Below are positions 24,726-42,720 of a stretch of DNA of 52,742 bases, piece after piece. The number at the start of each line of letters is the position of its first letter. The first letter of the stretch is position 1. The position numbers were made by a program, and so were the translations under genes. The stretch is from Planctomycetaceae bacterium (GTDB lineage Bacteria > Planctomycetota > Planctomycetia > Planctomycetales > Planctomycetaceae): contig CANJQC010000021.1 of NCBI GenBank assembly GCA_947476295.1, forward strand, positions 1-52,742, given 5' to 3'. The notes below the pieces were generated by a model that saw only the letters and a list, made by a program, of their open reading frames with translations, was not told the DNA's origin and searched no databases.

Positions 24726-25733
24726 TCATCGTCGTTGACGGTGGACAGTCATGGTGACTTTCGAATTGCGACGTACCGGCGTTCTGACACCGCCCCGCTC
24801 GCTGAAGGACCACCGAGAAAGGCCTGATGGCTTTGGAATCACGGGCGAGGAGCAGGCACCGTCTGTATCGTCTCTGGGTACTGCATTCGCGTTTTCTCCC
24901 TGATCGGCAACAGGCAGTTTACGGAGGCGAATTCGGCGAAAATGGACCACCGATCCTTCGCTCTGCAGGGCAATGCTGCCCGAGGATGGTTTGGCACCGC
25001 TCACCTCACCGGCGTTCTTGCCATTCACTTCCACGCTCAGACGACCACCTCGGCTGATGATTTTGCCTTCGTTCCAGGTACCGACAGGACGCGCAAGATC
25101 ACGTTCCAATTCACTCGACTGATCACTCATCGCATCGCCACTTGGAAACACGCTGCCCGCTTTTGGCTGATGCAACTGCACCTGCATTGATGTAGGCCAG
25201 ATTCTCGGTTCGTCCTGCGTGTACACAAGCACGCCGCTGTTCCCGTCGGCATCTTTGGGGAACTTCCATTCCAGCGTGAGTTCAAATTCAGTACAGGTCT
25301 CTGTTGTATAAAGAAAGCCTTTGGGTTCCCCGGAACAAATCAGGATGAGCTCCTTATCGTCGACATCGGGAACAACTTTCCAGACCGGAGCGCCCGGTGT
25401 CTCCGGTGCGGAACTGAATATTTTCCAGTGTTGAGCGAGATCATCCGTTAACAGATCAACAGCTTCAGACTCATCCACTTTTTTTTTCGCCTCATTCTGT
25501 TCGTCGTCAGCGACCGAAGTTGCTTCTTCTTTCTGCGTCCTGGTCGTGTCTGGCTGTGAAGCGGGCGAACTGATGGTTTCCGGAGTCCTCGCATCCTGAG
25601 CCATCACCGGCAGCGCCAACATCAACACCAGCACCGAAGCTGCTGCTCCACGGTATCGGCAAAGCAGGCGGTTGATGGGCAACCGTTTCATCTGACGAAT
25701 GCGACGTTGAATGATCGACGGCCCCTGAGACAC
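24726..25733 (-). CDS. Secreted DUF1080 (3-keto-disaccharide hydrolase-like) protein
   Basis: The product (335 aa) has a signal peptide (ASVLVLMLALPVMAQDA), a low-complexity acidic linker, and one DUF1080 jelly-roll domain from about residue 90 to 280. Landmarks are EPKGFLYTTETCTEFELTLEWKFP, NSGVLVYTQDEPRIWPTSMQVQLHQP, GTWNEGKIISRGGRLSVEVNGKNAGEV and GSIALQSEGSVVHFRRIRLR. The family is now called 3-keto-disaccharide hydrolase and is very common in planctomycetes. A basic tail of about 50 residues follows the domain. The GTG start at 25733 has AAAGGA at good distance; an ATG at 25691 has none. It probably acts on glycans outside the cytoplasm; substrate unknown. Confidence 0.82.
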   Translation of the reverse strand: MSQGPSIIQRRIRQMKRLPINRLLCRYRGAAASVLVLMLALPVMAQDARTPETISSPASQPDTTRTQKEEATSVADDEQNEAKKKVDESEAVDLLTDDLAQHWKIFSSAPETPGAPVWKVVPDVDDKELILICSGEPKGFLYTTETCTEFELTLEWKFPKDADGNSGVLVYTQDEPRIWPTSMQVQLHQPKAGSVFPSGDAMSDQSSELERDLARPVGTWNEGKIISRGGRLSVEVNGKNAGEVSGAKPSSGSIALQSEGSVVHFRRIRLRKLPVADQGENANAVPRDDTDGACSSPVIPKPSGLSRWSFSERGGVRTPVRRNSKVTMTVHRQRR

Positions 25734-39028: not shown

Positions 39029-41587
39029 ATGCGGCATTTGGCTGGTTCTTTTTGTTCACTTGGTCTTGGCCTGTCTGCTCTGTGTCATGCGGTTATGGCG
39101 GATTCGCTGCCGCAGCAGCCCGGAACAGAGGCGATGGTGTTTCGCACGGCTCACAGTGCTGAGAATCACTTCGCTGTCGCCATCAAGTCGCTGCGTCAGC
39201 CCGCGACGATTAAACGACACCTCGTCCTAGTAGACACGTCTGCCAGCCAGACTGGAAAATTTCGCAGTGACAGCCTGCAGGTATTGAAGTCGCTTGCCAG
39301 CGTCCTCCCGCAGGATCATCAGATTCTGGCCGTTGCGGCCGATTCGACTTTCGAACCAATGTCAGCAGATTTTTCGGCACCGGGGTCGACTGATTTTTCG
39401 GCGGCAATTCAGAAACTGTCTGAACGCACTCCGATGGGATCGACAGATCTTGCAACGTCGCTCAGGAAGGCAGTGGCACTTGTCGATGCAGACGCTCCCG
39501 CATCGCTGCTTTACATCGGTGACGGAATCAGTTCTTCAAATCTGCTCAGTTCCAGCGATCTGGCACAGATTGTCGCCAGCATGAACGATGCAGACGTATC
39601 GTTCCATGCGATGTTGCTCGGACCGAAGGTTGATACTGAACTGTCGGGCATTCTTGCCAACCTGACTGGTGGAACGAGTCAGCAGCCAGTTCGAATTGAT
39701 GCCGACGTCCTGGCTCGGGGATTATCGGATGCCATTTCAATTGCACCGGAATTTGTGAGCAGTCTCACATCGGAAGACTCAGCACTTTCTTTGGCGTGTC
39801 CGTCAAAGATCGCATTGCGTTCTGATCGACATACCGTCGTGTTCGGAAAAGGTGCCCCGTCCCGCGAATTGATGTTGACGGCAAATGATGCCAGCGGGCA
39901 GACTTGCAACTGGACGGCAACAGCATGCGAGAACACAACCGGCAACGAAGTTCGGATTCTTTTCGAACGCGCCGCTTCATCGCAGGGACTAAACTCACCG
40001 ATCGTCGGGATCGAAGGTCTGCAGTCCGTTTCTGTCGAACTCGCAGAGTCAGTCGATCGTTCCATTCTGGCAGCGAAACAACTTTCAGAAGACGGCGAAA
40101 AATTCCGCGCAATGGATCTAGCTCGACGCGCCAACATACTCGCTGGTGGGGATACTCGACTCACGGCATTGATTGATGAACTGGCGGATGCGGGACAGCC
40201 GCAGGCGTCTGGCGACGACCTTCTGGGGCCTCCGAAACCAGCTGAGGATGGGATTCTGAATCAGTCAGAAGAACGCATTCAGATTCGTACGCAACAATTG
40301 GCTCAATTGACTTCAGCGGCAATCAAAGAAGCCACAGAAGTTTCCGAAGAACAGCCAGACTATGCGTTGACACGACTAAAGGACCTTCTGGAAACCGTTC
40401 GCTCGGCACCGGAACTGGCACCGGAAGAACGCGATGAACTTGAACGTCGCGTGATTGACGCCATCGGCTACGTACAGTCTCGCCGTGAAAAAATTGTCGT
40501 TCAGCAACGTCAGGAACGAGAAGTGCGTGCTGTGGCGGAAGCAGAGCGGCGAGCGCTTTCCGAAATGCTGCTGGAAGACGAGCGTCTGCAGACTTTGATC
40601 AGCCAGGTTCGCGGTCTGGTTGACCGTGGTTCACATGGTGATACTGAGGCCTACGACGACGCCGTAGTGGTCGCTCGCACGGCCCTTGAAATGAAACCCC
40701 ACAATGGACCGGCAACACAGGCATTTATGATGTCCGTGGCACAGGGCAAGTTGAGCGAAGTTTATCACCTCAGATACCTGCGACAGGACCGCTTTCTGGA
40801 AGCTCTTTATCAGGTAGAGTTGTCCGCTGTTCCATTCCCGGATGAGCCGCCGGTTATCTACCCACCGGCTGATGTCTGGCGGGCACTGTCACTAAGTCGC
40901 AAGCACAAGTATGAATCCGTCTCACTGAGCTCTGAGAAACCTGCAGAACTTTGGCTCGAACGGATGCTGAGCGAACCCGTCAAGAATCTGAGCTTCCCCG
41001 GCGAGAATCCGCTTACCGACATTCTGGAACAAATCTCAACTCATTTTACCGCCACGTATGGTGCCTCCGGTGGTGGCGTGGGTGCAGACTATCGCATGAC
41101 GATCCTCGAAGATACCGGAACATTCAAGGACGAATCGATCTCGTTCCAGGATGTCACGATCAAGGATATCGAACTTGACGGTATCACGTTGAGGAACGCT
41201 CTGGAAATTATCTTCAGGCAGACGGATCCTGAATTGACGTATATGATTCGCAACGAAGTGATGATGATCACGACAAAGGAGTTTGCGGAATCCGAGGAGA
41301 ACCTCACGACTCGAGTGTATCAGGTCGGTGATCTTGTCATTCCGCCGATTCAGCTTGGTGGCGGTGGCGGCGGTGGCGGTGGAATAGGTGGCGGTGGCGG
41401 TGGAATGGGCGGTGGTGGAATGGGCGGTGGTGGAATGGGCGGTGGTGGCGGTGGTGGATTTGGCGGTGGTGGTGGCGGTGGATTCAGTCTGCCTCCGGAG
41501 ACGATGGTAAATCCGGCAGCAAAAGCCAAGGTCGGAATTTCCAACCAGTCGCTTAGCAGCCTCAAAAAAAAACCAGTAACGCAATAG
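39029..41587 (+). CDS. Exported VWA-type protein with STN-like domain and glycine-rich stretch (N-terminal part of a split gene)
   Basis: The product (852 aa) begins with a signal peptide (LAGSFCSLGLGLSALCHAVMAD). Residues ~60-250 form a von Willebrand A fold with a metal site LVLVDTSASQTG (DxSxS) and LLYIGDGIS. A helical region and a coiled-coil-like Glu/Arg-rich stretch follow (REKIVVQQRQEREVRAVAEA). Near residue 645 a secretin/TonB short-N (STN)-like domain occurs (NLSFPGENPLTDILEQIS, GITLRNALEIIFRQTDPELTYMI, NEVMMITTKEF). A run of glycines with Met/Ile/Phe fills ~777-820. It ends 16 residues later, after nine A. The adjoining ORF in the -1 frame carries the domain I would expect next, so this is probably one gene of ~1,230 codons. 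Confidence 0.8.
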   Translation: MRHLAGSFCSLGLGLSALCHAVMADSLPQQPGTEAMVFRTAHSAENHFAVAIKSLRQPATIKRHLVLVDTSASQTGKFRSDSLQVLKSLASVLPQDHQILAVAADSTFEPMSADFSAPGSTDFSAAIQKLSERTPMGSTDLATSLRKAVALVDADAPASLLYIGDGISSSNLLSSSDLAQIVASMNDADVSFHAMLLGPKVDTELSGILANLTGGTSQQPVRIDADVLARGLSDAISIAPEFVSSLTSEDSALSLACPSKIALRSDRHTVVFGKGAPSRELMLTANDASGQTCNWTATACENTTGNEVRILFERAASSQGLNSPIVGIEGLQSVSVELAESVDRSILAAKQLSEDGEKFRAMDLARRANILAGGDTRLTALIDELADAGQPQASGDDLLGPPKPAEDGILNQSEERIQIRTQQLAQLTSAAIKEATEVSEEQPDYALTRLKDLLETVRSAPELAPEERDELERRVIDAIGYVQSRREKIVVQQRQEREVRAVAEAERRALSEMLLEDERLQTLISQVRGLVDRGSHGDTEAYDDAVVVARTALEMKPHNGPATQAFMMSVAQGKLSEVYHLRYLRQDRFLEALYQVELSAVPFPDEPPVIYPPADVWRALSLSRKHKYESVSLSSEKPAELWLERMLSEPVKNLSFPGENPLTDILEQISTHFTATYGASGGGVGADYRMTILEDTGTFKDESISFQDVTIKDIELDGITLRNALEIIFRQTDPELTYMIRNEVMMITTKEFAESEENLTTRVYQVGDLVIPPIQLGGGGGGGGGIGGGGGGMGGGGMGGGGMGGGGGGGFGGGGGGGFSLPPETMVNPAAKAKVGISNQSLSSLKKKPVTQ
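41358..41484 (+). repeat. Glycine-rich low-complexity coding stretch
   Basis: Repeats of ggcggtggc and ggcggtggtggaatg encode Gly-rich segments with Met, Ile and Phe spacers, close to the 3' end of the VWA gene. Repeats of this type are prone to slippage. Confidence 0.8.
41564..41572 (+). other. A9 slippery run: likely frameshift point between the two ORFs
   Basis: Nine A read in the zero frame as AAA AAA AAA after CTC. The heptamer A AAA AAA is a classical -1 slippery site. A -1 shift here bypasses the TAG at 41585-41587 and reads directly into the downstream ORF, whose frame is open from 41557 (just after a TAG at 41554-41556). The two frames overlap only around this run. Confidence 0.7.
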
Positions 41588-41610
41588 AAGAAGCGACTTC
41601 GGACGCTGAT

Positions 41611-42720
41611 TTGAGTCAAAGCTCTAAGGGTGTGCAGGTCTCCAAAAAGGTGATTTGCACGCCCGTTTTTTGTAGTACACAGCAGGATGAGAAACTGCGG
41701 AAGTCCAACCCGCGAGCCGCTGAGAAACCCTTGAGTGCCGGGAAACTCGTCGATACAGTTCTGGCCGATCCGCGACCGGTGGCGAAAGTTTGGGACGAGA
41801 TCTTGACAACGCAAGCCGTGACTTCCGCCGTGCTTTCCGACTCGGTCTCAATCCTGCATGAACGCCGAAAGTACGACGTGGCAGTTGAAGCGATTCAAAG
41901 TGCTATTCGTAATGACCTGGCTGCGGCGTGGATGTACGATGTGCTGGCGCTGGAAATGAAACTGGCAGAACGTCCGGCAACAGAGATCGCCCGCGTGCTG
42001 GAATCTCGCATGGACTTTGCAAACGCCGACATCCCTGAACTACTGATCGCTGTGGCTCTGTTGTCCCGCTTCGAAGCCTGGGACGAAGCCATGCGAATCT
42101 GTCGCGAAGCTACAGAACTCAATCCCGACCTGTCGGAATCCTGGTTACTGGCTCGGAGTGTGGCAGACAAATCAAAGAACCCGGAGCATCGCGTGTGGGC
42201 TCGCTACGGAATTCTGAAACATGTCTGGAACGACGATTCTGATGCTCTGCACGACGAGGCTCGTAAAGTAATCCTCAAAACAGCAGCACAGCTTGAGATG
42301 GCCGGAGATTCGCCACAGGCCGAACGCATTCGGAACCAGCTCCGCGAAGCATCCAGGACTGATTTGATGCTCATCCTGCGCTGGGTTGGGTCTGCAGATC
42401 TGGATCTGATGGTCACTCAACCCAACGGCGAACAGTGCAGCTTCAAGAATCGATTTACGACTGACGGAGCCCGCTTCGCTCATGACGACACCGGATCAGC
42501 GACTGATGGAAGTACGAAGCGCTACGAACAGTACGTCTGCCGCGTCGCAGAAAAGGGCGACTACAAAGCCGCCGTCCGCTTTGTTCTTGGAAAAACTGCA
42601 GGCGGAATTGCCGCACTGGAAATTATCCGTCACGTCGGCACGCCGCAGGAATCCCGATCCACTCAAACCATTAAACTCACCCGCGAAGACGTGCAGATTT
42701 CCATCCCCGTGGCTGAATGA
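41611..42720 (+). CDS. TPR / DUF2135-like protein (C-terminal part of the split VWA gene)
   Basis: Open from 41557; the first usable start is TTG 41611 with no ribosome binding site. Residues ~60-240 are helical repeats of TPR type (VAVEAIQSAIRNDLAAAWMYDVLALEMKLAE, WDEAMRICREATELNPDLSESWLLAR). Residues ~255-369 form a beta-rich DUF2135/YfaP-like domain (LILRWVGSADLDLMVTQPNGEQCS, YEQYVCRVAEKGDYKAAVRF). In related planctomycete proteins, as I remember them, this half follows directly after the glycine-rich stretch in one polypeptide. Lack of its own start and the frame relation to the A9 run indicate that it is made by frameshifting or is separated by a single-base lesion. It converges on mqnE with a 13-base gap. 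Confidence 0.75.
   Translation: MSQSSKGVQVSKKVICTPVFCSTQQDEKLRKSNPRAAEKPLSAGKLVDTVLADPRPVAKVWDEILTTQAVTSAVLSDSVSILHERRKYDVAVEAIQSAIRNDLAAAWMYDVLALEMKLAERPATEIARVLESRMDFANADIPELLIAVALLSRFEAWDEAMRICREATELNPDLSESWLLARSVADKSKNPEHRVWARYGILKHVWNDDSDALHDEARKVILKTAAQLEMAGDSPQAERIRNQLREASRTDLMLILRWVGSADLDLMVTQPNGEQCSFKNRFTTDGARFAHDDTGSATDGSTKRYEQYVCRVAEKGDYKAAVRFVLGKTAGGIAALEIIRHVGTPQESRSTQTIKLTREDVQISIPVAE

Follow-up and report, generated by a model that had tools for sequence, protein, structure and literature searches.

To our knowledge, the known examples of programmed slippage in bacterial chromosomes are mostly isolated ones, such as dnaX, tssM, insertion sequences and endosymbionts. Passages of two reports describe runs of nine A or T as slipping efficiently in vivo, and describe Thermus thermophilus dnaX, which yields tau and gamma, as having a nine-base run with close stops in both other frames (PMC5009743; PMC1088944). 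In Citrobacter rodentium tssM1, a run of eleven A stands before an early stop and slippage restores a C-terminal domain, giving a protein of two lengths, and the passages on TssM1 state that both forms and their ratio matter (PMC4256274). Here we analyze a gene of similar layout from a Planctomycetaceae bacterium, lying in a 52,742-nucleotide (nt) stretch of contig CANJQC010000021.1 (assembly GCA_947476295.1) that we refer to as the window. In this gene, a run of nine A (A9) separates two open reading frames (ORFs), ORF1 and ORF2, and a strong covarying hairpin, often U-tailed, lies inside the second frame, a feature newly found here.

The planctomycete gene differs from each of its closest parallels. 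For tssM1, the passages name only one further tssM gene with a run and mention no hairpin (PMC4256274), whereas here the run occurs in nearly a whole family and in a second family, and a hairpin is conserved downstream. In Thermus dnaX the unslipped product is the long one, whereas here it would be the short one, and here a hairpin sits in the shifted frame. Attenuation of the pyrBI type, and ribosome-repressed intrinsic terminators generally, share with this gene the idea that ribosome position decides whether a hairpin forms (as described in parts of PMC4824070). Those cases concern a leader or a test construct, whereas here the outcome would depend on which reading frame polymerase slippage within a gene has set. 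The frame-transition clusters of GeneTack are reportedly those of Antonov et al. 2013. They draw on many bacteria and contain poly-A transitions that are conserved, but the set had only 2 planctomycete genomes, and the main text of the report contains none of the words "von Willebrand", "secretin" or "tetratricopeptide" (PMC3711429). Among the open-licence full texts searched, no title or abstract dealt with this gene or with slippage linked to a hairpin of the shifted frame.

The first-pass annotation of the window had placed an in-frame A run near the end of a first ORF, read a -1 shift without a stop into a second, and noted that the second lacks a start signal of its own; all of this stands (Table 1). 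The A AAA AAA heptamer is present in the zero frame at the junction, as expected since any nine-A run holds this heptamer in every phase. An independent start for ORF2 was considered and rejected. Among 126 genomes of the window's family (f1) with a split gene, an in-frame ATG occurs within the first 60 codons after the run in just 21, and across the same codons a Shine-Dalgarno-like 4-mer precedes a start codon in frame in 9/126, compared with 13/126 out of frame. The pair looks like a single unit of expression, connected at the A run and giving a short and a long product, as the annotation had proposed. Our account of the gene, in which slippage on the conserved A9 would produce two protein lengths and the hairpin is a probable conditional terminator, has in our estimate a probability of roughly 0.6.

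Table 1. Features at the junction, in window coordinates.
Feature	Position	Strand	Details
ORF1, short product	39029..41587	+	852 residues; stop TAG
Slippery A9 run	41564..41572	+	AAA AAA AAA, three Lys codons in ORF1
Third-frame TAA	41577..41579	+	frame of neither product
Zero-frame TAG ending ORF1	41585..41587	+	five codons past A9
ORF2 frame, C-terminal part of long product	41557..42720	+	-1 to ORF1; 387 codons, open from about 41557; stop 42718-42720
Terminator-like hairpin inside ORF2 frame	41628..41664	+	15 base pairs, -24.4 kcal/mol
T6 tract after hairpin	41666..41671	+	one G between stem and T6

The split is conserved in the family. We searched 142 f1 genomes and read the junction in 130; in the other 12 (G016, G017, G033, G143, G235, G294, G297, G300, G346, G376, G401, G403) the match was missing, partial or weak, or the locus was not fetched. 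A site was scored when the ORF2 frame was open from the run and another frame, itself open for 60 codons or to the contig edge, stopped within 90 nt. By this measure 126 of the 130 junctions, from 51 genera, are split with an A run: A9 in 120, A8G in five and A10 in one. The remaining four are G185 (A10, one ORF), G291 (A9, with the ORF1 frame untraced), and G002 and G318, which are contig ends. The zero-frame stop falls within 30 nt of the run at every scored site (126/126), a tighter limit than the 90 nt required for scoring. Bases flanking the run are variable, although a C follows it directly in 102/126. Lysine is encoded by AAA in only 38% of ORF1 lysine codons in these genomes, and A9 is rare across the genome in some of them, with 6 distinct places in G018 (7.3 megabases (Mb), one contig) and 8 in G030 (5.2 Mb, one contig), the junction included. 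It is less rare in others, with 45 overlapping matches in the 6.0-Mb genome of the window and 82 in the 7.8-Mb G135. Judged by sequence comparison, the presence of A9 at 120/126 f1 junctions is far beyond chance expectation.

A second family, f2, has the same arrangement. We searched 45 of its genomes (21 genera) and fetched 30 loci; in 29 of them an A9 is followed 5 nt on by a stop, and its codon phase is in every case shifted by one from that of the usual f1 site, and the thirtieth (G409) has A10 and a single open frame. Apart from f2, 20 loci were fetched from other families. Sixteen of these genes, from ten families (f3, f4, f5, f7, f9, f11, f14, f19, f22, f23), are single ORFs of 1,176 to 1,580 codons, contig ends truncate three more loci (G201, G051, G385) and one is split without an A run. 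The annotation had described relatives as having both halves in one chain, which holds for these 16 genes but not for f1 itself. In a separate set of 54 loci from named organisms, partly the same assemblies, 52 have A9 or A10 near the junction, one begins too close to its contig end and one is unsplit; these relatives are mostly named Planctomycetaceae, including Gimesia, Fuerstiella, Thalassoglobus and Planctomicrobium. ORF2 itself is matched in 56/59 near genomes and, by profile (E <= 0.001), in 394/397 genomes of the class, where some matches cover a C-terminal module only. Outside the class, a phylum sample of 244 genomes gave matches at E <= 1e-20 in 4 genomes of one family. On a protein tree of 109 selected ORF2 rows, the split or unsplit state changes three times, one of the changes being G185 within f1. 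On this tree, the two families may have gained the split separately.

Several loci stand apart from this pattern. The one split without an A run, L201 (G041, the one f6 genome analyzed), has ORF1 and ORF2 overlapping in the -1 register with one G6 and no A or T run of at least six, and by eye its ORF1 contains an extra secretin-like stretch; its split may reflect another recoding signal or an assembly error. L200 (G024, genus g8, labelled f1) has an f2-like site, with the run in phase 1, G after the run and a TGA 5 nt further on, and its ORF2 forms a long branch next to f2, which may stem from shared ancestry, transfer or a long-branch artefact. L155 (G185) and L244 (G409) are natural A10 loci with one open frame and could be recent re-fusions or homopolymer errors. 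L039 and L045 come from metagenome assemblies titled Candidatus Kuenenia stuttgartiensis yet carry the f1 form of the gene, and are possibly mislabelled.

This distribution bears on two explanations that place the change in the DNA. The annotation had offered a one-base lesion or a sequencing error as an alternative to recoding, a reasonable concern given that homopolymers are error-prone and many of the genomes are metagenome assemblies. However, the same state recurs in 126 f1 genomes from 51 genera, the one-contig genomes G018, G021 and G030 among them, and again in f2, while ORF2 evolves under purifying selection (dN/dS, the ratio of nonsynonymous to synonymous substitution, of about 0.14). 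These observations refute error, lesion and pseudogene alike, and we consider the chance that they account for the split to be negligible. The second explanation is phase variation, in which gain or loss of an A during replication switches lineages between the short and the fused form. G185 in f1 and G409 in f2, each with A10 and one open frame, look as such a switch would predict, but a switch would often show both states, and the split A9 state is found at 120/126 f1 and 29/30 f2 sites, which makes phase variation very improbable.

The two ORFs are probably joined by slippage of RNA polymerase rather than by -1 frameshifting of the ribosome, a conclusion well supported by comparison between genomes. 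A -1 ribosomal shift needs only seven A. Of the f1 runs, 110 are in phase 0, four in phase 1 and 12 in phase 2, and the length is still nine in 120/126; all 29 A9 loci of f2 are in phase 1, and the codon phase changes seven times on the 109-row tree. Five f1 genomes, which belong to three lineages on the tree, have ORF2 at +1 and still carry A9 (G020, G276 and G162 of genus g4, G075 of g41 and G306 of g64), and the agreement of the three genomes from one genus speaks against assembly error. Slippage would serve shifts in both directions, whereas a -1 ribosomal shift would not, so the +1 arrangements and the retention of nine A in all three phases both favor slippage. A third-frame stop likewise comes no more than 30 nt after the run in 93/126 f1 genomes, compared with 30% elsewhere in the same genes.

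Programmed -1 frameshifting was the other recoding option named by the annotation; it would act on A AAA AAA or A AAA AAG, with the hairpin a terminator or unrelated. Every -1 site has the heptamer in frame, and the sole shortened runs seen (A8G, 5/126) retain A AAA AAG, a heptamer at which ribosomes are known to shift, so that these sites suit ribosomes and either mechanism could operate there. The usual stimulators of such shifts are a Shine-Dalgarno sequence upstream and a structure a few nt downstream. Upstream of the run we found no Shine-Dalgarno-like enrichment, the mean duplex energy being -1.5 kcal/mol compared with -2.8 kcal/mol at a control place. As for a stimulatory structure adjoining the run, folding energies of the first 45 nt gave a modest signal (mean z -0.70, with 17% of genomes at z < -2); the strong stem, at +30 to +100, is too distant for a usual stimulator. 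Given also that nine A are kept where seven are enough and that five genomes need +1, frameshifting seems distinctly unlikely, and of the annotation's two recoding options it is transcriptional slippage that gains. The 45 nt upstream of the run have a mean z of -0.16, and thus no nascent-RNA hairpin on average; a hairpin of this kind is described just upstream of the slippery run in a Roseiflexus insertion sequence in passages of PMC5009743.

The hairpin, which the annotation had not noticed, begins in the window 55 nt past the run and 40 nt past the ORF1 stop. A folding-energy profile over 63 of the 126 f1 genomes peaks 50 to 95 nt after the run (mean z -1.93). Taking a score of at least 26 at +15 to +165 from the run as the criterion, a stem is present in 108/126 f1 genomes and 45/51 genera, compared with 10/252 dinucleotide shuffles and 0 to 12 of 113 to 126 in seven other windows of the same genes. 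Its start has a median of +63 (5th to 95th percentile +30 to +100). In f2, leaving out the A10 locus of G409, 24/29 loci have the stem, compared with 10/116 mononucleotide shuffles, and the unsplit genes have it in at most 1/16 per window over six windows. The fused A10 gene of G185 scores only 18 in the stem stretch, and that of G409 keeps a stem (31.5). The stem covaries in the window's genus, where 7 of 15 genomes (plus-strand loci with a 39-nt stem) were aligned and a further hairpin comparison covered 12 of 15. Sixteen of 17 pairs have changed on both sides and 91.6% of cells pair, whereas slid versions pair at 32-42% and 0/500 shuffles reach the covariation score. A T run of at least three follows 60% of f1 stems, compared with 11% at random, and the density of T after the stem is 3.84 per 10 nt, compared with 2.00 at random.

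The order of stops and stem suggests how these elements might work together. Among the 108 f1 genomes with a stem, the zero-frame stop precedes it in 106, and the third-frame stop does so in 104, against an expectation of 48%. The zero-frame stop lies a median of 46.5 nt before the stem, and at least 27 nt before it in 100/108. According to parts of a study in E. coli, a terminator works at full efficiency once the stop is more than about 27-30 nt away, and termination fell from about 90% to below 10% when a single inserted base brought the stop up against the terminator (PMC4824070). Since both wrong frames stop before the stem in nearly all of these f1 genomes, these distances suggest that faithful or wrongly slipped transcripts would let the hairpin form.

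We hypothesize that RNA polymerase slips on the nine-A run, adding an A, or in some lineages usefully removing one, in a share of transcripts. Faithful transcripts would encode the 852-residue short protein, which ends a few codons past the run, and one extra A would yield an ORF1-ORF2 fusion, about 1,230 residues long, that gains a TPR and beta domain. A ribosome leaving at the zero- or third-frame stop would allow the hairpin to form, ending transcription and giving a short message. On a transcript slipped into the ORF2 frame, the ribosome would instead trail the polymerase across the hairpin and block its folding, and the long message would be completed, so that this message would come mainly from slipped transcripts. 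The run, the stops, the hairpin and ORF2 are, by comparison of the sequences, conserved and under selection; slippage, termination and their coupling are the parts that we infer. For the boldest form of the proposal, that slippage decides, through the trailing ribosome, whether that same polymerase gets past a terminator 60-100 nt further on, and does so across two planctomycete families, we put the odds at about even.

Several observations weigh against this interpretation. Only 73/108 genomes have 27 nt or more between the third-frame stop and the stem that follows, and the stem falls below threshold in 18/126. A strict terminator with a T tract is found at the place of the hairpin in 49/126 f1 genomes (compared with 10/630 shuffled segments) and in 0/30 f2 loci, and a majority with a T run of at least three is seen in only 21/45 f1 genera. 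With the U tract weak or missing, the hairpin in f2 and many f1 genera may not terminate alone. The 16 unsplit genes give eight scattered strict terminator hits, three of which fall less than 100 nt upstream of the ORF2-like match. The stem threshold was set after inspection of the data, and the genomes are related, so that the counts are not independent. Against slippage itself, structure near the run is slightly raised and the five A8G genomes combine a shorter run with an intact heptamer; the argument as a whole is drawn from sequence comparison.

Some of these points would suit another arrangement in which slippage is real but the hairpin, uncoupled from the frame, serves simply as a leaky terminator or as a structure protecting the mRNA end. 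The weak or absent U tracts agree with this, and termination at the hairpin is itself a prediction from sequence. The uncoupled hairpin does not, however, account for zero- and third-frame stops standing ahead of the stem in nearly all genomes that have one, nor for the lack of the stem in unsplit genes, and passages of PMC4824070 describe terminators in translated frames as repressed. We regard an uncoupled hairpin as unlikely, though still a serious competitor to slippage-gated termination.

The gene probably encodes an envelope-type protein made in two lengths. ORF1 comprises a putative signal peptide (by eye), a VWA domain (Pfam VWA_3, E 5.6e-9), a helical part, an STN-like domain and a glycine-rich tail, where the STN match is weak (E 0.02) and was found in a relative. 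Pfam and NCBIfam searches gave the VWA domain only, with TPR and other matches weak or below threshold. The AlphaFold2 model of ORF1 has a mean predicted local distance difference test score (pLDDT) of 71.8, and that of ORF2 (pLDDT 82.4) begins with a disordered linker, followed by TPR-like helices and a beta domain (262-379); structure searches with ORF2 returned TPR folds. The best structural matches of the ORF1 model were archaeal ArnA/ArnB, described as a Sec23/24-core ortholog, and the inter-alpha-inhibitor heavy chain, in partial alignments with a high root-mean-square deviation. Relative to a near relative, dN/dS is about 0.16 for ORF1, close to the value for ORF2, and by this measure both are under purifying selection. 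The presence or absence of the TPR and beta domain on a VWA protein hints at two partners or at two envelope locations. The C-terminal module of the f1 long product (profile about 390-462), which is absent from the window's shorter ORF2, recurs in other ORFs of many f2 genomes, many of them 1,350-1,770 residues long.

Conservation of the run, the stops and the hairpin in most relatives suggests that the split is a built-in switch and not a broken gene. A one-base change could fuse the frames, as in G185 and G409, yet the split persists, which suggests that the short product or the ratio of the two is needed, in parallel with TssM1 of C. rodentium. If our account is true, a widespread planctomycete gene would have slippage as a fixed feature retained throughout the family, and its link to a hairpin of the shifted frame would be an extra level of regulation, undescribed in the open-licence literature searched, with the cell completing long messages mainly from transcripts that slippage has made readable. 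For annotators, it serves as a warning that such split genes are not pseudogenes.

We also looked for the same build elsewhere, inspecting 27 A9 places in the window's genome, 6 in G018, 8 in G030 and 15 in G135, and found no other clear case of a long ORF with a stop just after A9 and a long second frame. At L277 (G000:C87:183), a contig end, an A10 ends a 60-codon frame reaching the contig edge, with a 249-codon frame beyond and a stem scoring only 19.5 nearby. The window holds a second A9 at 25479-25487 on the minus strand, in a KKK stretch of a 335-residue ORF (24726-25733, minus strand). The ORF that contains this run stays open while the other frames stop soon, and a moderate stem (score 26.5) lies at +65.

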